A stretch of DNA of 64,000 bases, from the NCBI GenBank assembly GCA_029964075.1, contig CM057142.1:37140392-37204391 (forward strand), read 5' to 3'. Positions 454 to 21,400 of the stretch are shown one piece after another (the stretch's first letter is position 1; every line of letters begins with the position of its first letter). Position numbers and translations under genes: made by a program. Source of the stretch: Patiria pectinifera (taxonomy: Eukaryota > Echinodermata > Asteroidea > Valvatida > Asterinidae). The notes beneath the pieces are model-generated. The model was given only the letters and a program-made list of their open reading frames with translations. It ran no database searches and was not told the origin of the DNA.

Positions 454-3400
454 GTGAGTTACAGGCTAAGCTTGAGTCCCTCGTTGGGGGACGCTGAATC
501 AATTTTGTGGGATGAATCAATGTTAGCCCCGCATCCCCTTTTGTAATACGATACCTGTATGATGTGTTCTAGAGTTGAATAGAGTGACGGTAAGTAGAGC
601 CTCAGACTTCAAATTCTTAAAGGGAATATACATCATTTGCTTTTGCTGTAATTTTCAGAAATGGATGGAATTGGGGGGGGGGTTCGAAATATATAGCAAA
701 TATAGTTACACTGACTTTTTTGAGGTTTTGGGTTCGAAAATGCTATAAAACCAAGAAAAACAATCATTTTCCTGTAGTCTGGTTCCCTGACTCCATATAA
801 GAAGAAACAAAGCAGTTTATATACATTGGGGAATTGTAAGGTCAGGGAACCAGTCTAGCTGGCTCATACCCGTTCATAGGTTTGCAAACAAGTGCGATGG
901 TCAACTGGGGTCAGTATTTGAAAAAAAGCCAGTTTTTTCCAACGCTGATCGGCCGATCAGCGTTGGAAATTGATACAAAAATACCACTTTTCTTTACGTA
1001 CATGATTTTACAGGATGCTTTACACTGTCATTCACTAACACTGAGTAACAGTCCTGCAAGGTATTTCAAAATGATTTGGTAGTTTTATTTTTTGATGTTT
1101 GCAAATGTTGTATTTTCCCTTTAAGCAGTGAAGGGTAATTTCATAAACCCAAACTTTTTCTGTTCTATTTTCAGTGAAATAATGATAAATTGAAGCTTTT
1201 TCTGCGTGCAACTGATGTGTTTCTTTATGTTTTTCACCCCCGTACATGTAGTGTACCGGTATGTGTACATATATGCACATTTAACCCTCCTATGGTAACA
1301 TGCAATGTCAGCCTGCTTATTACTTGGGTCAATATTGGTCAAGACCCCCATTGGTTTGTACACAGTAGGCCAGGAGGTGAGGAAGAAAGTTTTGACCATT
1401 GGTGACCTCTTAAGCAAATGGGAGTCATTTTTGTGTATTGATCACTTTTGTCGGTGTTCCTGTCCTACATTAACCGCCAAGCCTATATAAATAACTTCAC
1501 CACAATAACCAGAATTTGTTGGCAGCGTTCCATGGCAGAAAGCTGTGGGGATTTCCCCTGTTGAAATATCATGTGGTTGGCATGCATGTTATCACGATAC
1601 ATATGGTAACGTTTTGATTGGCCAAGCATAGGAAAGACTTGTATTATATTCAAATTTATCATATCACATGGTTATCATGACTATTTATTAGCCTGTGTAC
1701 TCATTTTTTGGTCAAAATGCCGTTCCATTTTGGGAAGTAAAATCAATTAATTCATCACGCATTCCGAAAGAACATCAAAGTAATGTTCAATTTTGACTCT
1801 GTAATGTGTGTGAAGTCACATAATGGTGACTTTGATTACATGTATTTCAAACAACACACAGAGTACACATTTTGTACATAAGTATGTACAAAAGCACCTG
1901 TTCAAAATGTTGCCTTTTTGGAAATGTTCTTTATAAAATCAGCGATTCACCCTTACACGTAATTCAGTTATTACGAATGTTGTATGGCCAAGTAAATAAA
2001 TAAACTAGTTTCTGATCCACGCCCGCTTCCTTTTTTCCCAGCCGCCTCCTTTTTTCCCAGCCGCCGCCTTTAAAAAAAAATTTTTTAATCAATCATTTAC
2101 AAAATGTTGGCCCAATTTTTTTTTTTATGTTCTTCCAGCAGCAAAATTGTAGCTACATGTACATGTACATGTACGTACACATGTACCATATGCAAGTTTA
2201 CATGTACATGTAGAATCTGTTTGAAGGCGTTACGGCTCATTTGGACACAAAAGTATCAGCAAAAGAGTCATGGAAATGGAAGATGCCATCATTAAAAATC
2301 TGCTATCTTGAAAGAAGGGGGAGGGGAGAAAAGGCCTCCTCCTTTTTTTCAAACAGCCCGGATGAAAAACTTATTTTTGTTTTACTTGGCCTATGATCAG
2401 ATGATGACTGCATCCAAATTCCTTGGCTAAGGTCCATACATGTATGTATGTAAGTGCATGCATGTAAAGTCAAGTACATGTATGTACATACTTATACATG
2501 TACATGTATACATGTATTTGTACGGAAGTCAGAAGCAGGTGTACATTGTACCATGCATTGTGCACCCACCTGTTGATATCTATCATCTTAACAACATTTT
2601 ACCCACTCACATAAGTGTGTATAAATGCCTGCAGTCCGGGACCCCCTATTGTCCCTCTTTTGTTTGTACTCTAACTTTTTAGGAAGACCTCCCATATGTT
2701 TTGTACACGAATCCAAATTGGGGATCTCTCGGGAATTGGGGACCATTGTCCTCTATTGTTCAACGTCCCCTATTGAATGCAGAAACAAACTCACCCACGC
2801 AATGTATTTATGCGCAATTTACATACAATAAGGTTTGGTCAGACATCTATATCCCTTACTACAACAAGCTGGAGTAATACAATGCACTGGTATACATAAT
2901 GTACATTGTACTCTCAAACCCAATATTTAGGCGTTTCAGGCAAATACTTCCCCGGATAAAAATCAGATTAGCTTTCAGGAATTTCTGCTTTCTCAGCCCA
3001 ACATTTGAAGAAAAAAAAGTTCAGTAAAAAATTATTGACAGACATTAAGACAGTGGTCGGGCAGGTCCCCCCCCCCCCCCACAAGCTCCAGTCCCATTGG
3101 GCCGTTTCTCTCAAACCAAATCTTGATGCAGTATCAGGCAATTCAGGGAAAAAAAATGATTAGCTTTCAGGAGTTTCTGCTCCCTCAGTCAAACTTTAGG
3201 GGGGCCTACGTGTAGATTTAAAAAAAAAAAAAAAAGTTTCAAGGGGAAAAAAAATATAGGAAAAAAAAAATGGTAGGCCCACCATTCAAGCAAACTCCTG
3301 TCCCATTCAGCCATTCCTAATCTTCCGACAAGTACAATGGCCTTGTTTTTTTTCTCCTTTCAAACAAGTTGGAGAGTTCTTACCTATTGGCCAAATGGCA

Positions 3401-6400
3401 AAAGTGCAAGTTGTTGACTTAGTATTCCATTACTGTATGGCTGCCAGCGTCAATACTGGCACCTGTTATGTGATGGCAGGTTTAAACTTCACCTTTGCCT
3501 ACTGGTTTTTAAACTTTCTTTTCTTTTTTTTCTCCCAACCATCTTGTGTTAAAATCCAGGGGCTGCAGGCGTACTGGTTGGGCAACCGTTTGACACTGTG
3601 AAGGTATTGTATTTTACATGTACCGTATTTCTTTTTTCTTTGGATTTTTTTTTGGGGGGGGGGAGGGGGGTTTCTGTGCAATATGGTTTTCATTTTGGAC
3701 CACAGCATTTTTTAGCGAGGGTTGCCAGTCATCAAGACATTTGCTTACTGGTCTCGCGATTGATTTTTTTTGCAATTTTTAGGGGACATACATTAAAGGG
3801 AATATACATCATTTGCTTTTGCTGTAATTTTCAGAAATGGATGGAATTGGGGGTTTGGAAATATATAGCAAATATAGTTACACTGCTTTTTTGAGGTTTT
3901 GGGTTCAAAAATGCTATGAAAACCAAGACAAACAATCATTTTCCTGTAGTCTGGTTCCCCGACTCCATATAAGAAGAAACAGAGCAGTTTACATACATTG
4001 GGGAATTGTAAGGTCAGGGAACCAGTCTAGCTGGCTTGTACCCGTTCATAGGTATGTAATCGATTGCAAACAAGTGCGATGGTCAATTGGGGCCAGTATT
4101 TGAAAAAAGGCCTGTTTTTTCCAATCCTGGTTGGCTGACCAGCATTGGAAATTGATACAAAAATGCCACTTTTCTTGAAAATGACAGTATACCAGGTGCC
4201 ATGATTTTACAGGATGCTTTACACTGTCGTTCACTAAGTAACAGTCCAGCAAGGTATTTCAAAATGATTTGGTAGTTTTATTTTTTGATGTTTGCAAATG
4301 TTGTATTTTCCCTTTAACTTCCTTGTATAATATCTTCCTTTTTTGAAATTTTTTAGAAATGTTTGCGTAGTATTTTTCGCATAACAGTAATTGCTTAAAT
4401 TAGGCTCTTGAGCCTTACAAAAAGTTTAAAGACCCCCCAAATAAATTGTCCATGCAACCAAAATATTGATGCCTTTTACTAAGATAAGTAGACATCGCCA
4501 TAAGGACATATTTTGACATTGTGACTTAATGAAATTTTGAGTTTATACCTACAATGTACCTGTAACTTCAAAAGAAATTATTTTGTATTTGAGACAGAAA
4601 AAAAAATCCTGCGTTGTCTTCTGTTGACACAAAGTTTTGTTTTTTAAGTGGTCCAACCATGCCCCTCACACAGAGACACATGGCTAAAAAAAAAATTCCC
4701 CGACGTCGTCTTCTCATATCAAACTTTTGATGTTTCGAATATGATTAAAAAAATGCTATCATTTATCGATATCACATTGATAACGAGTGATCGAGTAGTA
4801 TCGATAATCAGTCCTTCTGATTTGAAAGTCACAGGTGTGTGGGAAACGCACACCTGGATTTTTCTAGGTGTGTGATTTTTCTAGGCGTGTGATTTTTCTA
4901 GGCGTGTGATTTTTCTAGACGTGTGATTTTTCTAGGCATGTGATTCTGTGGTCCAAGCTGGGACTGAACAATCTGGCATTGTTTTTCAAAATATTTATCT
5001 TGGTTTACAATACAGCCATATTCTCTTCACCGACGTACTTTATTTTTCACAAATTATGAAGTATAATTATGCCGTAAATGTATGCCGAGGTGTGCGGTAC
5101 TGAGGGATTCAGGCGTGCGATTATTCGCACTTCTCAGGAAGCATTTAGGCGTGTGATGGCGTGGGGGTGTGATCGCACGCCTCAAAACAGAAGGACTGAT
5201 AAACAAACAGTACTGCTCTGTCTTGGAGATTCCAGCGTTGGATCTCACTTGTTATCACCCAATCCAAGGGTGATCTTGCTGTCCACCCCCACATAGCTGT
5301 TATAATAGGCATTTACAAATGTATGCATTTATGTGCCTATAGGATCTTTTGCTTTCCATGAATTTTGTTCGTTTCCAATAATAAGATCACTCCTTATCCA
5401 AAGAAACATTTCAATTTCTTTGTTGTTGATATTTCAATTATTGGGAAAACCGTGAAAAACCTTGCACAACAATTGTTCATCAAAAGCACTCTTTTTGCCA
5501 AAAATCCGTCCATTGGCCGATAGTTGGAAATCACCTACATTCCTTGATTTTGTCTATTAATGACAGCAAGCCAGACGGAATAAATGTGCTTCACGGGGGT
5601 TGTAGTACCAGTACAATCTTTTATTTCCAAGTCACAGCTGTTTGATAATAATTCAGTAGGATTTATGCAAATGTTCCTACATGTGTATTTTTAAGGATGC
5701 TTGTCCTTGAAGTTAAAATGTCCTGTGTATAGTGCATGCAGTGATACAGCGGGGTGTGGTACAGCATTCTCCAACTTATGATTGTATCATGACACTATTG
5801 CAACATTAAATTCCCTAGATGCATTTGAGACATGCATGTATGCCTTCACATCAATGTACACTGCAAGTCTTCCGTTCCGGTTTCCGGAGTCATGTGCAAA
5901 TGTGATTTGTTGCAAGAGTTGTTTTGGAACGTTTCCAACACCAAGTCAAACTTCTTCATATAGGCTACATGTACCGCGCCACGCAGGCACCGACGGTAGC
6001 ATGTATATATGTGCACGAACTACTTGGTTTTTATTTTCACTTTAGAACATACAGATTAACATACAAAGCCGACTTGTCTGGATTTTGCCTCCAAATCCAG
6101 ATGGGCAAAAGAAGTACGTGATATGCAGTACCCATTTGCGACTTTTTGTGATAAACCCTAAGTTCTCCCAACATACCCAAGGCACAGAATGTTTATTCTC
6201 ATGAACCTTCCTACCGGTAGATCCTCCAAAATCATTCTGTGTAGTCAAACTTTCATGATGGATTTTTGTAAGAGCCTAAGAAGGTTAGGGTCAACGGGCA
6301 CATGCAATGTAATTTTTTTAATGCAGTCCCCGAAAATACACATTGTGTCCCATTTAAATTTCATTTTTTCGTTTTGCCATTTTCAAGGGTATTTTGGTGC

Positions 6401-9400
6401 TTTTTGGATTTTTATGCTGATGCAAATGTCCATATTTATGAGCAAAAGTGTGATGTCATTTCAGGCGGACACCTCAATATTACGTATTTCGGCACCAAAA
6501 GTTGTCAAAATTTCGGATATTTCACTGTTGTAAATTTTCTTTTCTTTGGTGATTCATTGTGTCAGTTCATGTACCAATGAGCAAACTTTTCTCACAAACG
6601 TTTTCAATGAGCAAATTTTGGATTCACAATTCGAACAGAAAAAGCTGAACAGTGTCTTCCTGAAATGACATTACAAGAACAGCCCCCTCAGTTGTCCGGA
6701 AAAAGCAAGGAAAATTTTAAATGTTTAAAATAAAGTGCACTTTTTAATAAAATTAACCAAAAAGGGATGTCAAACAGTTTTCATACATTTAAGAGGAGTA
6801 GAAAGTTGCACACAAAATGTTTCTAAGAAAGATTTAATGTACGATCATGGACCCTTTAAAGGAATCAAACTAATTAGATACACACATCCATTGAACCATG
6901 CCAGAAGATCAGGCTTGTGATCAAGTGGGTACGTGTATTTCATCATTTGAAATGCTTTTTGGTTTAGAATTAAGTCACTTACTGTACCGCATACATCTTT
7001 TCTGTTGAATTATTTATTTTTTGTTGAAAATTTGGCGGAGTTTGAGTATGCGAATATTTATGTGGCTCCTCATCTCAGTCATCTGGCAGTTAAGACAATT
7101 TTGTTGAGAAAGGAAATGTTGAGGAAGGTCCAACTTAACCTCTTGGAGTTACCTGTTTATCAGAAGTATCAAGACTGTGCCATGCCAAGTGGGTTTCTGC
7201 AGATTGTAGGATTTTGCAGAATTTGGGCAGATCTCTATAAAACCGGCCTCTGATGGAACCGTTGGCATCATCACAAAAGTCATGCTTGGGTCACAAAACT
7301 GAGAAATGGTGTGATTATCATGGAACAAGTGGAACCTCAAGACAGAATAATTGCAGCCATGCTGATGTCTCCTACGATGCGACAACAATACACAGCAAAA
7401 TTACAGTGATCCAGACACGACATCGTAATTTCACATGGGTCCACTGCGATTCATTCCCGCCTTTCGGGCACGAAATTTTTCTACTTGTTTGGAGTTTCGA
7501 CTGATGCTGATCGTCTTATCTTTGTCGCAGTTGCACTCAGGTCGCAAAAGAAGCCGGCAACTGATATGTTCCCGATGGTCGTACACGTACATGTACATGT
7601 AGCTAAAGCGCAGCTTCATCCTGAAAAGTCAGTCCGAGTCGCCGACTGTTCTGTTTCATGGCAAAGTCCACCTGAGGGCGGTTTAATAAAAAAAAATTGG
7701 AGGAAGCGGTCTTAAATATTGAAATGAGTATTGAGTACCGTACATGTACGTACGTGTATGTAATTTTTTGGTCATTTTTTTCACAAATGATCTCTCCTTA
7801 AAAGTACTACACTTAAATTGATATGAACAAAAATACAAATGTACAATGTATCTTACAATTTGATAGAAAGGACATGTTTAATCGACTTGCTGTTGAGAAA
7901 ATGCCATCACAACTCTGCATACACGTACCCTACCATGTACAGTGTATACTGTACATTATCTGAACAAATTTGTGCAGTGATTGTCACTAACATGACTAAG
8001 CTGTTGTGTTCACTTTACACAGTTTGGGATATTTGGTTAAGCAGGGACTCAGCTACATACATGTACATACCGGTCCATGTACATGTGCGTATTTGCTTGA
8101 CTTGCATTTTTCTAAAGAAGCGTATTGAATATTTTTGCAGACTCTGTTATTCATCAAATATAGCCACACAAACACACAAATCCCACGTATAGAGTACACT
8201 CAACAAATGCACATCTTTATCAGTTTACTTTTGTACTCCTGTGCCGTCATCGATGCCTAGAGTTACGTCATTTATAGTACATGTGTAAGTTCAACATTCG
8301 ATTGGCAACAGCTGATGAATAGACGTCAGCGAATGTTGCAGAAGATTTCCAGCAGGTTGCATGTTTTGATGAAATACAATTTAACAATTTGGAATATATT
8401 AATAAGGGAATAAATGTGTGTTTGGGAGGTACATGTATTATAACACTATGTTTAAGACCGGTTTGAGTCTGGATGGGCGACGTAATTACCCGAGGCGAAG
8501 CCGAGGGTAATTATCGCCCATCCAGACTCAAACTGGTCTTAAACAGAGTGTTTAATACCGACCGAACACACATTTATTCCCATTCATAAATACCTTTTTG
8601 GTCCAAAAATAAAAAAATGTCAAAAACTGGACGTTGCCAACCATTTTTTCAACAATTTTACATCATGTTTTACGAAACACCCCTCTGATGTCGCGCAAAA
8701 CGTAGCTGGGCTGGTGAAGTGTGAATTTCGGACCATGAAATACTGATTCACTGGTAGTACATTACGCATGCATACGGGAGGAATTTGAACATTCAACCAA
8801 TGAAACGTTAAAAGGCACCGGATTTCATAGGAGTCCAAATTTCATGTGACACTGGAAAATTGTTTAAGACCAGCTAGCCATGTCTTTATCATCCGTTTAA
8901 GACCGGCCACGCGACGGGCTCTCGACCAATAGGAATGCGTATACGGTCTTAGGTATTTATGAATATAAATTTACATTGCACTTTCAAATTCTGGAATTCT
9001 GTATTGTGGATGCAAATTTTCATCTTGCCAGTGCATATGTGGCGTGATTTTGTTTTTGATTGGGAAGCTAAATATGGAATTAATAAGGGAATAAATACAA
9101 TGGGTCGTATGAATAAAAACTAGCATTTGCTCTTACTACCAATTTTTAAGCATTTACTCGCATCTGTATGAATAAAATGCAGCAAACACTATTACTAAAA
9201 AGCATATTTGCTAAAATCTGAAAGTATACTTTTTACTTTTTAGCTTTTGCTAGACTGAAAGCGTTTACTTCGTTTCATATGAATAAAATGGAGTAAATGC
9301 TTCAGATTTCAAGTATTTACTGGTCATTGTTCGAGGCTGCTTTGAAAATCAAATTGGGACCCTCAATCAATTTATTTTGCCAAAAATAAGATTTTTGCAA

Positions 9401-12400: not shown

Positions 12401-15400
12401 ACATAAAAATCGGACCAAAGGTTGCCGTGCAGTGAAAAATTTTCCGGTGCTACGCGCCGTGAAAACTGAATTTTCCCATATACGTCGTATACACAGAGCA
12501 GAATTACCATTTACACATAGGAATAATTAACTAGCCATAATTCCAAAACCCTTTGACCTATAGTCTTGAAATATCTTGGGTATGTTCATGATGAGTTGCT
12601 CTATGCATGTACTGTGTTTCAAAATTTTTCGTCACTCGATGGCCGAGATCTATTTCATTTCTAAAAGTGGTCTTCATTGTATCCTGAAAGGAGAATTGTC
12701 AATTCTTGATGTGCTCATTATAATGGCAAACCATTAACTGGCTTAGTTTAATGGGCACAGCGAACAGCTGTGTTTATGTACCATGTGTTTCCCCCCATTA
12801 ACTGTCTGAAATGCAAATTGATTTCAAGAGGAAAGATACATGTACCGGTATGTATGTACTGTGATAATGTAGACCTCCACTTGCAAAATAATAAAATTGT
12901 CGTGGGTTCATTGCTTCAGTTTCCTGGCTTCAAATTTACCAACTTTTTTGTACAGCTTTGACAGGTTATCCTCTTTTAACCCTAAAAGGGCGGAGGGGGG
13001 GGGCGCCCCCCTCAACTTTTTCCGTGATTGCCTTGAATTTTTTTTTTTGCGACCCGCACTGTTATGACTTTTTAGCCTGGAGCCTTGCGCATCTTTTGAT
13101 ACCAAAAATGCGCCGTGAAAACTGAATTTTCCCATATACGTCGTATACACAGAGCAGAATTACCATTTACACTTAGGAATAATTAATAAATAATTAGAAA
13201 TAAATGAATTTGGAGGATTAGTATGTTATAAAATATTGTTAAACTGACTTGTTTCATGTTTTGGGCTTGTAGATGCTGGAAAAACCAAGAAAACCTATCA
13301 TGTTCTTGTAGTCTGATTCCCTGACCCCACAGAAACGAAGCAATTAATACACTTTGGGGAATTGTAAGGTCAGAGAATCAGTCTAGCAGGCTTGTACCCC
13401 TTCACAGGTGTGTGATCAATTGCAAAGAAAAGTCAGAATAACTAAATATGAAAAATTAAGAACAGTTTTTGAAAAAAAGCCTGTTTTCTCCAACGCTGGT
13501 CGGCCGACCAGCATTGGAAAAATACAGTTTTTCTTGAAAATGTCAGCCCACCAGGAGCCACGATTTTAAAGGATGCTTTAGACTGTCAGTCCCTAACAAT
13601 TCAGTAAGGTATTTCGTGGTAATTTGATCATTTCGTTTTTTGATGTTTGCAAATGTTGTATTTTCCCTTTAAATACATGAAAAGTTTAACATTTGAAATA
13701 ATTAGTGAGCATCTGTGACAAAAGATCAACTACCGGTAAGTGCAGTTGTTGGGAACAACTCTTAGTCAGTCAATAGAATATTAATACATAAAGTTTTCCT
13801 GTCTGGAAGCAAAATCTATTGAAGTTGACCCAAGTTGCTCGTAATACAAATTGGTCTGGGGTGTAACCCCATTCTTTCTAAGTTTCTAGGTGATCGTGAG
13901 TACAAGCTTTTGATTTGTTTCGGGACAGTGCTGCTTGTCAAACAGCAATGGCAAAAGGTGACAGACTTGAGGAGCACACCGCACTTTAGCAGAGGGGAAA
14001 AAAGGGTCAGGGGGAATTTGGGAAAGTCACTAAAAAGCTTGGAATCCCTGAGGCTTTCCTGCCTGTCAGAAATTGGTGCTTCTACTGACATTTGTCAAAG
14101 CTGGAAAAACAAATTGTCACCACTTACCATCCACTTTTGTGTTTAACAACTGACATGGTTGAAGTTCTGCTGACAGGTTTTGCACTTTAATTTAAACAGG
14201 GGTGTGAAATCTCAGTTTTAATGCTGATTTCAGCTTTTTTGTGTTGGATTTCAGCTTTTTTTTTCCCAACTTTTTCCCTCACTTGCTGTGTACAAAAGTA
14301 TAGGAGATTTCTAAAGTTCAGGTTTTTTTTACACCTTTTTCAGCTGTTTTCAACTATTTTTATCAGTGGTCACTCACACCTCTGTTTAAAGCAGGCTCAG
14401 TTGACGTGGCTAAGTTCTCCGTGGCCTACATGTAGATGTACATGTACAGTATGGCACTGATCTTCAGAACTTTGGAGGCAAGAAGTTTCTTCAAGAGTTT
14501 GTGGTTTTGACTTTTGCTGAGTTGGCCAAGCATCCTTTGTTTTCACTTCAGCTTTACGTTTAACTTCAAGTCATTCATACTGGAGACTATAAAAGAAATA
14601 TGTTATCGAGTGTCTGTGATTAATTGTGGGACAGGATTAAAAATTAATGGAATTGCTCATCTACAGCACAACATGATTCAACTTGGAAGCAAACATATGT
14701 TTGATGAACTAATGGGAAGCAGAATGCATAATATCAACTAATATTGAGCCTGTCGACAGCTGTCGTACTGTAGTTTTGTCTTGCAAATTCTGCAGAAAAA
14801 AGTTATTTACACAAAGTTTGATTGTAACACGTTTCAAATTCTGCAGAAAAGATGTTTACACAAACTTCGAGTGTAACACTAACAGGTTTCTCATGATGAA
14901 ATGAAGCATTTTTTTCCACCCATCAGATGATTATCAAAAGGAGAATTCTAGTTTTTGACACATGGAAAATTGCCTCTTTTTTTTGAACTCGCAAGTGCAC
15001 AAGTATGGTGGCCCTGAAGGGACATCGCATATCGTAAACGTGTGCGCATACGTATGCGATGTCGCGAAATTTATCGCAAATATGTGCGCACACGTATGCG
15101 ATGTCGCGAAATTTATCGCAAATATGTGCGCACACGTATGCGATGTCGTGAAATTTATCGCGAATATGTGCGCACACGTATGCGATGTCGTGAAATTTAT
15201 CGCGAATATGTGCGCATACGTATGCGATGTCGCAAAATTTATCGCGAATATGTGCGCACACGTATGCGATGTCGCAAAATTTATCGCGAATATGTGCGCA
15301 CACGTATGCGATGTCGCGAAATTTATCGCGAATATATGCGCACACGTATGCGATGTCGCGAAATTTATCGCGAATATATGCGCACACGTATGCGATGTCG

Positions 15401-18400
15401 CGAAATTTATCGCGAATATATGCGCACACGTATGCGATGTCGTGAAATTAATCGCGAATATGTGCGCACACGTATGCGAATTTGTTTGCAATGTCGTGAA
15501 TTTTATTGCATACCTTGTCGCATACCTTTCAGTAAAATTCCTACTGAACTGGGGAGTTGTAGCAGCTAGTCTGGAATCTAGACGTACTGTTAGATATAAA
15601 TAGGGTCTGACTAATAAACCTGTCAAACGCAAACTTGCTACTTGCGCATCTTTGAAATTTGCGCGCGCAAGTTTGAAACTCACGTGGTGTCCATGATTTT
15701 AGGTCTTAATTGAAGGCTGGTATTGTTGTGAGTCTAAAAGTTAACTTCGCATTTCTGACTGGAGTTACCCAATTTTAGCATGGAGCAACACAATTGATGT
15801 TTATGAAATATTGACAGATTAGCTCAATGATATCTTATGTACACAAGAAGACTGGAGTGAAAACTTCAACATTTATTGAAGACACAACATATGAAAAGGT
15901 TCACATCATTGGTAACATAAGGTCAATTACTTTCATATGAAAGCTTTTGCTTGTCGGAAGGGATCAATGAAACAATCATATTAGAGTACATGTATCAATA
16001 GATCACAGTAATTTAACAAGTTAGTATGAGAATTTTTTGGAAATCTGCTTGGGAAGAAAACTAATAATGTCATCCAAGTAAAAATTCCAATTGTGAAAAA
16101 AATATCAATCCTTTACATTTTGAGTCTACCCTTTTACCCTGCCCTTTTAAGATTTGAAGATGATGAAACAAATTCCATATTTGAATAGTTGTGTTTACTA
16201 CTGCATGTTTTTGAAATTGGAGTTTACTTAATAAAAATGCAGAGCCCAATCTTAAGGTCTAAATGTCATTTTTGTTTTTTACTATTATGAGTTATTTAAT
16301 TTTAAGAACATCAACTATTTTTACATAAACATCAAAACTATTCCTATCATTACATAACCCCACTTACATGAAATAGTTTTTTGAGATCCTGACAAAACTT
16401 CATGTATAATTTTTTAACCTGTCACACGGGCAGATTTTCCCACTCCGTGGTTCAACTGAAATCTTGTTAACTTTCTCATTACCATACAAATATGTACAAA
16501 TTTTAATTACAATTTTCAGTCTTTCAGGGTGTAGCCTAAAATTGGGCTCTGACAAGTTGCGAGGGATTAGCAAGCTATATATGGCTTTGAACCAAGGTTA
16601 ATCTCAAGTAAAATCCACCCAAAAAAAAGCAATAAGAACACATTCATTACAATCAATAACACAATTTCCAGACACTATTGAGGACTTGGTAAATAGGAAC
16701 AAAACACATTTCTGTTCAGGTGCAATTGCAATGGTGGCAATTTATATTCTGTCAGTTATGAGTTCTTTTAACTCCGCAAAAAGAGTGACAGCATCCGCAG
16801 GTGTTTGTGGCATGGTCAAACCATTCTCCGTCATTAGTGTTTGAGCAACTTCCTCAAATTCGGCAGTGCATCCATTTTCGGCAACAGACACACAGATGCC
16901 ATCATCAATTGCATCAATGTCATCTCCTTGAACTTCATGTCTGTAGTCGCGGGCACCTATGAAATTAATAACATACAGCATTCATTGACATTAAATTGAC
17001 AATAAACAGTTAAATTTACAATAAACAGTTCCATGCCAGTGAAACATAGCCAGTAACTGGTGAGAATATCTCTCGACTGTCCCAAAATGACAATGCTATG
17101 GTGCATTTGATTTCCTCAGCCAAGATTTCTGATAGAGTTCCCTGTATGAACTAAGAGCACGTCTACGTATCGTCAACATTGAGGAAGAAGTCAGATGGTA
17201 GACTGCGCTTGTATGGGCACATCCAGCGCATGAGTAATGAACAAGAACTACAGGTAGAGAGCGTCCGTCCACAAGGTCGCAAGAAAGCACTGGATAGACA
17301 ACGTCCCAGGTCCGGGAGGCATGGAGAAATGCCATCAGACCAGGCCGACATGACCACAAATGTGTCCTACCCTCGACTTCGGGGAACAAGTCTTACACAA
17401 TACTTTATTTTAAAGGAAATTAAACAAGTTGAAAATGCAAATTAAACATACCATAATGTTGTGGGAGAAAAAACATCATATCTGGCTTCCCATGAGGACC
17501 TTCTGACATTTTGCAATGTCTGATGTGGTGTTCATTCCACAATCTGCCAACTCGATGAAGTTCTCTGCGTAGTAATTTTGTGAAACAGAACCGTACACAT
17601 TCTCTGGAAATGAAAAAGATTAACATATTGTATTAGACATCTATCTCATCTCTTGTCGGGCTTCCATATCACATCTCCTTTTAAACAGTGTATTATCATA
17701 CTGTAAAGTGATTTCATGAGTCGATACAATGATGTTTCATGTACACAGACTTGTGCATGATTCTCCAGAAACATAACTGCAATGTAAAATAAATTAGATA
17801 ATAAAAACACTCCTCCTCATTGGCATAACACAAGACAATTTCATCTTACTTTTCCCAGAGGCAGGAGTTGTCAAAGGTTCCACTATAAACCAGGTCCTTG
17901 AAGAGACTCAACCAGTAATTCATGGCTCCCTGCCTCATGCTGCCCCACCAGCGTTCAATTCTCTGGAGAATAGAGAAAATACAAATAAATGCTCTCGAAA
18001 ATAAAGTAGTGATGGCACAAACAGGCTTTTGGACGACCAATAAGAAAAAAATATTACTTGATGATAAATACCGATAATTCTTGGTGACTCAAATTATGCA
18101 CTGCTTAACAATGTGTTATCAAATCAACGTACCACATGTTTTATGACATTTATCACAATCACAAAGTAATACAATTAAAAAAATTGTAATGCGCCACAAG
18201 ACATCATGGTGAAAAGGCTTATTCTACGAGTATTCAAAATGCTTAGGCTTAGATAAAATGCAACAACTGCCCTATGAACTTTTAATCCTGCATCTTCAAG
18301 TATCAAAAACAATAAGTAATGATTTTTTTGTTTCACTGAAATGAGTTGCTTTTCACATTTACCTGATTTGAGGTAGATTTGCCGTACATGAAGCTCTTGA

Positions 18401-21400
18401 AGTCAGAATGGTCATCATTGTCATGGTAGCGAAAGGCAATCTGAATGTCTTCTATAAGAGTGTTCTCAGTCCCACGATCAGTCCTGATTATGTGTGGTAC
18501 CGCTGAAATGTAGATGGTAAGAATGATCACATGCATCAAACCTTAAATGTATGCAGAATGTCATAAGTTTACATACACGAGAGGTAAACATTTAAAAAAA
18601 CCACAAGAATAAATAAACAAAAAAATTTAAAAATACCAAAAACTAACGATGTGCACAGACAATCACGCTGCGCTATATCGGCTCTGTTATAAGCAAAAAA
18701 ATTAACTCATGTGTCCCATCACTCCCAAACGGCGATCAGCCGCCGTCAAAATCCACTATCCCCGAGACTAGGCCCAAAACATGCGAGGCGACTTGTCTCA
18801 ACGGTCGACTTGTCTTTCCATTTATCGCACACACGGTCGACTTGTCTCAACGGTCGACTTGTCTCAACGGTCGACTTGTCTCAACGGTCGACTTGTCCCG
18901 AGTCGAGTTGTCTCAACGGTCGACTTGTCTGACCCCCCCTGTAACCTGGTAACGACTATTACTATGAGTATTGCCATAACGTTACCATCCTCCAAGTTTG
19001 TTTTGTCCGAAAATTGGGCAGAACCTTTCAGAAAGGTTCTGGCTTTCTTCAACTTGCGTTAATAAGAATAAGAGTTTCAATATATTGTATAAAATTCAAA
19101 ATAAGTTAATAACTATTATACTAACCATTGTACCGGTGCTCATTTTCGTGAGAACAGTCCGACGATTGTTCGCATGGACCTTTGTCTTGTGATATGATGC
19201 TGTACCATCACCCTGTGGCTGGCCCGCTAGAGATGACCTTGGCCACGCTGAAATGTAACTGCTTGGTACCCAAGCTCCTGCCTTGAAGTATCTTGGGTAT
19301 ACAAAATGGGACCAGGGCCACTTGCGGACTCCCTAGGTCACTAACGAATTGCCCGCAAAAATGACATCACCCCAAAGGTATGCGACAAAGGTATGCAATA
19401 AAATTCACGACATTGCAAACAAATTCGCATACGTGTGCGCACATATTCGCAATAAATTTCACGACATCGCATACGTGTGCGCACATATTCGCGATAAATT
19501 TCACGACATCGCATACGTGTGCGCACATATTCGCGATAAATTTCACGACATCGCATACGTGTGCGCACATATTCGCGATAAATTTCACGACATCGCATAC
19601 GTGTGCGCACATATTCGCGATAAATTTCGCGACATCGCATACGTGTGCGCACATATTTGCGATAAATTTCGCGACATCGCATACGTGTGCGCACACATTC
19701 GCGATAAATTTCGCGACATCGCATACGTATGCGCACACGTTTGCGATATGCGATGTCCCTTCAGGGCCACCATACACAAGCCATAAATGTGCGGTACATT
19801 TGGCCTACAGATGTATGTTAGGCCCAAAAAAAAAAGTCTCCGGTTTCTGGTATGGAGCTTGTCCAAAAAGTGGTGCGGCGACACGGCTGTTTTTTTTTTA
19901 TACCTGACTTTTTTGCTTCAAATGTCGACTGATGACTGCAAATGGTGCCCGACTAAACTACATGTAAGTGCAAATATATGGGAGTCCAGATAGGCCACAT
20001 AAAGCTTATTCTCGATTATAACCCCATCTAGAAACACGTTAAAATTGTGCAGCAGCAGGATTCCAGTCAAACCAGTGAGTTTGGCGGTTTTGAGACATCA
20101 TTTTTCATTGAAAAAAAACCTTTTTCATTTTGCCGACGCGCATGGCTACGGCGACGCGCGCGCATACCAGAAACCGGAGACTTTTTTTTTTTGGCCTTAG
20201 CCGTTGGAATGAAATAGTAGTTTCACTGTACTAAGACTACATCTAGTGGAGGCCGAGGAGCTGCATGTAAGCTCAGACTGCAGCAGTCAAGTCAGGAAGC
20301 ATCTCTTGAACGCTACATTGTAAACATAATTATTAACACAGCATTACCCATGTAACATGTCTTTACAAAAATTGAATGTTATGGTCATGTGATGCCATCT
20401 TTCACGAAACGGTTCTCTTTTGCATTGCCTGTATACATGTGTACATTGAAATATGAAAGGTTTAAAAGTGTTGACAAATACTAATGGGGGCCAATTAACA
20501 TGCAAAAGATGCATAAATGGTCAAGATACCGGGGTACAGAATACGCTTTTAACAAGCCTAGAAATGCAACAGACTACAATAGATATATACCGGTTAATTG
20601 GGAATTTTGTTAATCGCCATAAAATTCAACAGAAATTCACCCACTGAAGTACAGTGTGTTACACACGTACCAGGCATGCTAGGTATGTCAATTCAGGGTA
20701 GCAGTGGCAGATCCAGGGGGTGCAGAGAAATTTGGCAAATGGGGTCAAAATGGGCTAGAATTCATTTTAAGATCGGGACCCATCCTGGATCTTGCCCATT
20801 TTGGGGGCGGAGCTTGATTTTTTTTTAAAGGGGGTGCAAACAATACAAACTCACAAAAACTGTATTTAACATCCATTTTCCTTGTTTTTCTATGGTTTGA
20901 AATAAACTTAAACATAAAATATAACATTCTAGCATTCGAACACCAGTTAATTTCCACCCATTTTGTGGGCGTGGCCTAAATGTACAAAAGAGGCGGTATA
21001 TATTAGCAGTTTGGTTCTAATATGGAAAACATTATTCGGTTTGGTAGTAAAATCCTGAAAATTGGCAGGTCCAGTTAAAATGGGCTGAAAATAATTTTAA
21101 GAGGTGAACACATCTTGGATCTTGCACAATTTTGGGGGCGGAGCTTGTTTTTTCAAAAAGGGGAGTGCATTAAATAAAAAAATGTATTTTAACATCCATT
21201 TTCCTTTGTTCTTCATGCTTGAAATAAACTTAGACATGAGAAATAACTTTATGAGAAATAACACGTTAAAATTGTACAGCAGCAGGATTCCAGTCGAACC
21301 AGTGAGTTTGGTGGTTTGAGACATCATCTTACATTGAAAGACATCATCTTACATTGCCGACGCGCATGGCTACGGCGACGCGCGCGCATACCAGAAACCA

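Follow-up and report, generated by a model that had tools for sequence, protein, structure and literature searches.

A 64,000-nt stretch of the Patiria pectinifera genome (contig CM057142.1, positions 37,140,392–37,204,391 of the forward strand; 'the window') carries at 15004–19774 an element that is best explained as a non-autonomous copy with a damaged interior, belonging to a Foldback-like, IS3EU-type DNA transposon family. The family is real, recently active, Foldback-like and of IS3EU type. With it, the Foldback architecture of Mutator and P elements is seen also in an IS3EU-type transposon, one that has more than 500 ends in this genome.

The element opens with TATGGTGGCCCTGAAGGGAC at 15004–15023, the reverse complement of which ends at 19774, giving exact 20-bp inverted ends, and these are flanked on both sides by an exact target-site duplication, CACAAG. 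Just inside the ends lie two 42-bp arrays that face each other, and the two arms, inverted against each other, were identical at 338 of the first 350 bp. The window copy thus has the type-2 Foldback architecture of a short terminal motif plus inverted subterminal arrays at both ends. The ends, duplications and inward-facing arrays described in the initial annotation were all borne out. The features, with the evidence for each in brackets, were as follows.

14998–15003, no strand: left target-site duplication CACAAG (sequence match)
15004–15023, plus strand: left terminal inverted repeat (TIR), TATGGTGGCCCTGAAGGGAC (sequence match and genome search)
15041–15479, plus strand: left array, 42-bp unit, 10.5 copies, 96 % matches (Tandem Repeats Finder, TRF)
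16748–16981 (approximate), minus strand: transposase gene, C-terminal segment (coordinates of locus L002 converted to the window)
17450–17602 (approximate), minus strand: transposase exon (coordinates of locus L062 converted; joined exons match PF24764)
17849–17965, minus strand: transposase exon with RIERWW, which we read as holding the putative catalytic E
18363–18506, minus strand: transposase exon with RTDRGTEN, which we read as holding the putative second catalytic D
18638–18980, no strand: nested repeat of another family, with a 17-bp array at 18789–18930 (TRF and similarity)
19425–19748, minus strand: right array, 42-bp unit, 7.7 copies, 97 % matches, inverted relative to the left array (TRF)
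19755–19774, minus strand: right TIR (sequence match and genome search)
19775–19780, no strand: right target-site duplication CACAAG (sequence match)

Searching the 613.5-Mb genome with the 20-bp end (≤ 2 mismatches) gave 266 + 280 = 546 matches, compared with 1 + 0 for the reversed pattern. Loci of the family (L-numbers) were fetched from two sources: matches to the window's left arm, a sample biased toward array-bearing copies of subfamily A (see below), and exact 20-bp ends listed on C1–C7, a sample blind to arrays, biased to young copies and fetched in part. Exact 6-bp duplications flanked 48 of the 54 paired copies, the exceptions being L029, L030, L059, L072, L080 and L088. Flank comparison identified duplicated loci (L025–27, L029/31, L032–34 and L083/84), and L026, L027, L029, L033, L034 and L084 were dropped before independent counts were made. 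L029, itself damaged, had flanks matching L031. Of the resulting 48 independent pairs, 43 had exact 6-bp duplications, the chance of which is 1 in 4096 per copy; the two flanking copies differed at one base in L072, L080 and L088, at two in L030 and at four in L059. All 16 copies of subfamily B had an exact duplication. When the 43 duplications were read on both strands, the outer positions were G or C in 64 of 86 cases and the inner positions A or T in 69–70 of 86, which gives a 6-bp insertion target of the type S-W-W-W-W-S.

Related empty sites were found for three other insertions. A single target was present in the uninterrupted relatives of L039 and L048, with a less clean, gapped match for L036. 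The joined flanks of L039 matched an uninterrupted repeat in the window at 110 of 120 positions, with the target once as CTGCTG instead of CTGTTG, and an uninterrupted repeat in L010 at 108 of 120, with the target once as CTGTTG; those of L048 matched an uninterrupted repeat in the window at 90 of 95, again with one target. That the element belongs to the DNA transposons is upheld by these sites and the family-wide duplications. Two other sites carry the 497-bp left arm of the window element at 100 % identity, which indicates recent activity of the family.

An integrase-fold transposase remnant had been proposed between the ends, and this is upheld by the minus-strand exons (approximately 18506 down to 16748), which, when joined by eye, matched PF24764 ('Integrase core domain') with an E value of 1.2e-13 and 51.6 bits, the Pfam cut-off for this family being 26 bits; no relevant Pfam match was obtained with the window exons taken singly. 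An upstream transposase piece from L067 matched the same family (5.7e-9, 36.4 bits), and PF24764 was the sole Pfam family above its cut-off in the transposase pieces. By tblastn the upstream piece, which includes the putative first catalytic motif, was found only in L067 and in L068/L019. It is missing from the window copy, where the nested repeat with the 17-bp array sits in its place; L010 carries more of the nested sequence plus a further 1.1 kb, both absent from the window. A PDB search with one transposase piece returned nothing significant (best E value 0.17). Gene pieces lie between the family's ends in long A copies, and some A copies keep a broken PF24764 gene. The window copy, L009, L017 and L018 have in common a 2451-bp damaged interior that is 98–99 % identical, and since this interior occurs with four different duplications, it was probably mobilised in trans in its already damaged state. 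Genome-wide there were 87 matches to PF24764, not including the window exons taken singly; by our count 38 of the 87 were on C7, which holds approximately 7 % of the genome.

The filing under IS3EU in the initial annotation remains the best superfamily assignment, made here from the ends, the duplication and Pfam. IS3EU families are described as always having TA..TA termini and usually 6-bp duplications (PMC10045372), and those of rust fungi as having TAYGG..CCRTA ends and TIRs of more than 30 bp (PMC12730594). The TATGG..CCATA ends found here fit the TAYGG..CCRTA pattern of IS3EU/GingerRoot elements in these descriptions (PMC10045372, PMC12730594), as do the 6-bp duplication, exact in 43 of 48 pairs and with one mismatch in three more, and the integrase-like DDE transposase (PF24764) between the ends, for which the catalytic residues are our reading. 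The arrays are a difference, as the term 'tandem repeat' occurs 0 times in the main texts of these two papers (PMC10045372, PMC12730594), and no description of IS3EU ends with such arrays was found in the searchable literature, a body that excludes Repbase and most subscription papers.

Array-built ends as such have precedents: the same architecture is found in type-2 Foldback elements, Muta1 for example, and in Galileo. Sea urchin TU elements, from a 1983 paper, reportedly have long inverted ends of short tandem repeats, with 15-bp repeats and an 8-bp duplication. In the Mutator-like elements of Aedes aegypti to which Muta1 belongs, a short terminal motif is followed by nine subterminal tandem repeats per end, and there are many non-autonomous copies, often with truncated arrays; Muta1 differs in having an 8–9-bp duplication, a Mutator transposase and 12-bp repeats (15 bp in Muta5), as given in the account of these elements (PMC5225508). 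The Mutator superfamily was ruled out for the present family on the 6-bp rather than 8–9-bp duplication and on PF24764 being the sole Pfam family above cut-off. Galileo, of the P superfamily, likewise has long inverted ends with tandem repeats, and its transposase is reported to bind sites inside these TIR repeats, but it differs in its P-type THAP transposase and in its ends (PMC3688188). The P superfamily is not supported either: no P-type or THAP Pfam match was obtained in the pieces covered, which do not extend to the N-terminus beyond the upstream piece and may thus leave out an N-terminal domain. Tetris of Drosophila virilis is described as a Foldback element whose inverted ends contain tandem repeats of approximately 220 bp that gave rise to a satellite (PMC4079207), whereas no free array was present here among the matches listed.

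The suggestion in the initial annotation that the transposon offers a route by which satellite DNA is seeded was not supported. The A-type unit had 795 genome matches (≤ 1 mismatch) and the B-type unit 1194 (≤ 2 mismatches), with 0 for the reversed controls. Unit and end positions were compared by eye on partial listings; among the matches listed (100 A units on C1–C6 and 100 B units on C1–C3), 99 of each type lay within approximately 1.1 kb of a transposon end, and no free 42-bp array outside transposons was seen. The exceptions, each a lone unit, were at C2:5855125 and C2:1168091. Elsewhere, some satellites have been reported to resemble IS3EU (PMC8268682, PMC5844308).

The family comprises two array subfamilies, A and B, which share the 20-bp end and whose consensus units differ at 11 of 42 positions (74 % identical). 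Arms were sorted into A or B by total mismatches, giving 366 A units in 70 arms and 421 B units in 32 arms, the B elements falling in the L043–L061 range and L085. The step between units was 42 bp in 289 of 296 A intervals and 360 of 389 B intervals (B also having 14 at 54 bp and three at 30 bp). The offset before the first unit was 37 bp in 65 of the 70 A arms; all 32 B arms had an offset of 36 bp, and a constant part common to both unit types, TGCGATGT, was present in 342 of 366 A and 400 of 421 B units. Array size ranged from 1 to 12 units in A arms and from 2 to 31 in B arms, and the numbers of units in the two arms of an element were moderately correlated (0.47 in 28 A elements and 0.49 in 16 B elements). 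Between elements, units of the same ordinal differed less than units of different ordinal (A 2.60 versus 4.00, B 2.76 versus 3.30, duplicated loci included), as did units in opposite arms of one A element (2.51 versus 3.67, duplicates removed). This same-ordinal likeness implies that A arrays are inherited in order, and the two arms look like mutual copies.

Tandem array made up 69–86 % of the sequence in 15 of the 16 B copies, and 31 % of the sixteenth (L048), such that non-autonomous transposons built mostly of tandem repeats exist in this genome. Most B elements had a layered build of outer 42-bp arrays, then 19-bp and approximately 61-bp repeats, then a central 21/42-bp array. Two B elements, L049 and L055, were shorter and simpler, and L048 held a 1312-aa retrotransposon-like open frame at 3138–7076. 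The transposase pieces had no match in any of the 16 B elements.

How general the arrays are was assessed on the first 700 bp of the 129 ends in hand. A 42-bp unit was present at least once in 121 of them, compared with 0 of 129 shuffled arms, and at least twice in 114. For the 70 ends taken from the 20-bp-end listing the corresponding figures were 63 and 60, the other seven having none. Both arms carried at least one unit in 50 of the 54 fetched pairs (34 A and 16 B), and in 26 of the 29 pairs from the 20-bp-end listing. The prediction that copies of the ends would not occur without arrays therefore held only partly: A and B typically have arrays, but this does not extend to every 20-bp end.

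With moderate confidence, and arguing from the arrangement of the repeats, we propose that the 42-bp units most likely serve the transposase, or a protein partnering it, as repeated recognition sites. A DDE transposase with the integrase fold (PF24764) would cut at the TATGG..CCATA ends and insert the element into a 6-bp target, and units at a fixed distance from each end would help to find and pair the two ends. Array length would drift by unequal exchange, copying between arms is suggested by the position-specific unit variants common to both A arms, and the 20-bp end that B elements share with A would allow them to be moved in trans. The ordered binding sites put forward in the initial annotation are consistent with the fixed offset, the exact step and the common core; the palindromes that were to mark them are loose, seven of the 70 listed ends carry no units, and the binding itself is putative.

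The three palindromes per unit described in that annotation are present in part and loosely kept. Unit positions 1–10 formed a perfect 10-bp palindrome in 210 of the 366 A units; among the 421 B units, 334 had it. In circular palindrome shuffles of the TRF units at half-length 15, the B unit had 15 of 15 pairs, reached by 0 of 5000 shuffles, and the A unit 11 of 15, reached by 29 of 5000. Little weight is given to these shuffles, since the majority B consensus differs from the B TRF unit at positions 41–42 and the full 30-bp palindrome was perfect at 127 of 360 contiguous B junctions, compared with 0 of 289 A junctions.

Several observations weigh against this account of the family and its arrays. 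No complete transposase was found among the copies. No unoccupied relative of the window's own site was found through its joined flanks (best 40 of 1712 candidates), the left half of the flank search having matched itself alone and much of the right half being common repeat, and the empty-site evidence consequently comes from other insertions. L059 and L080 had no unit at either end, L030, L072, L082 and L089 none at one end, and L072 had approximately 20-bp repeats in place of 42-bp units. L025 and L074 each combined a single-unit end with an end of five or six units, and as their duplications were exact and different, insertion does not require long arrays on both sides. The arm-to-arm ordinal contrast was weak in B (3.08 versus 3.26). 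Positions 2 and 9 of the A unit were G-C in 218, G-T in 78 and A-C in 64 of 366 units, without compensation within the subfamily; no covariation is claimed, because these common variants break the pair, although the difference between A and B keeps the pairing.

The main rival explanation is that the arrays are passive passengers: the 20–22-bp end would suffice for transposition, and in non-autonomous copies slippage and unequal exchange would expand the subterminal DNA. Ends that share the 20 bp and have no units, one-unit ends with exact duplications (L025 and L074), the wide range of array number in both subfamilies and the 21-bp and approximately 61-bp interior arrays of most B elements, which suggest a general tendency to expand, would all be expected. 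What passive expansion does not predict is the same 42-bp step and near-same offset in A and B despite their 11 unit differences, nor the presence of at least one unit on both arms in nearly all pairs (26 of 29 from the end listing), and we regard it as rather doubtful. It is still more improbable that the arrays serve some other role, as a promoter or insulator, in escape from silencing, or as a replication or hairpin signal. In favour of such a role, a host protein binding in phase would likewise fit the 42-bp steps and 21-bp inner repeats, and part of the B junctions form the perfect 30-bp palindrome; yet B elements without any match to the transposase pieces keep arrays at both ends, and the full palindrome is lacking from every A junction. 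That the structure is a satellite locus or an artefact of segmental duplication can practically be dismissed, for although four sets of loci were duplicated together with their flanks, exact duplications flanked 43 of 48 pairs once these were removed, related empty sites carry a single target copy, and for each unit type 99 of the 100 listed adjoin an end.

We offer tentatively the further idea, which we consider rather unlikely, that a Foldback end arose independently in an IS3EU-type transposon, that the functional unit of this end is the number and helical phasing of the repeated sites (42 bp, approximately four turns), that array length sets how a copy competes for transposase, and that the B subfamily is an extreme product of that selection. 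The A and B subfamilies, with diverged units on the same step and at nearly the same offset, and the natural ends with 0, 1, 6 or 31 units provide a ready series on whether transposase binding scales with subterminal array length.

Some ends of the family were widely spaced: 39.7 kb on C7 with an exact CTTTTC duplication, 27 kb with one mismatch, and 19 kb on C14 with no simple duplication. In the first of these (L090, C7:21065560–21105293) each end carried an A-type array, transposase pieces lay between them, and part of the extra length looks like a retrotransposon-like frame; no claim of cargo is attached to it. In L053 (C5:1613400–1616600) two ends face outward and the 10-bp flanks are mutually reverse complementary, a layout pointing to a palindromic duplication. 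The nested repeat at 18638–18980 of the window was seen again at more than 25 places, and since a second 17-bp array in inverted orientation often lay a few hundred bases off, it may be a further transposon with arrays at its ends.

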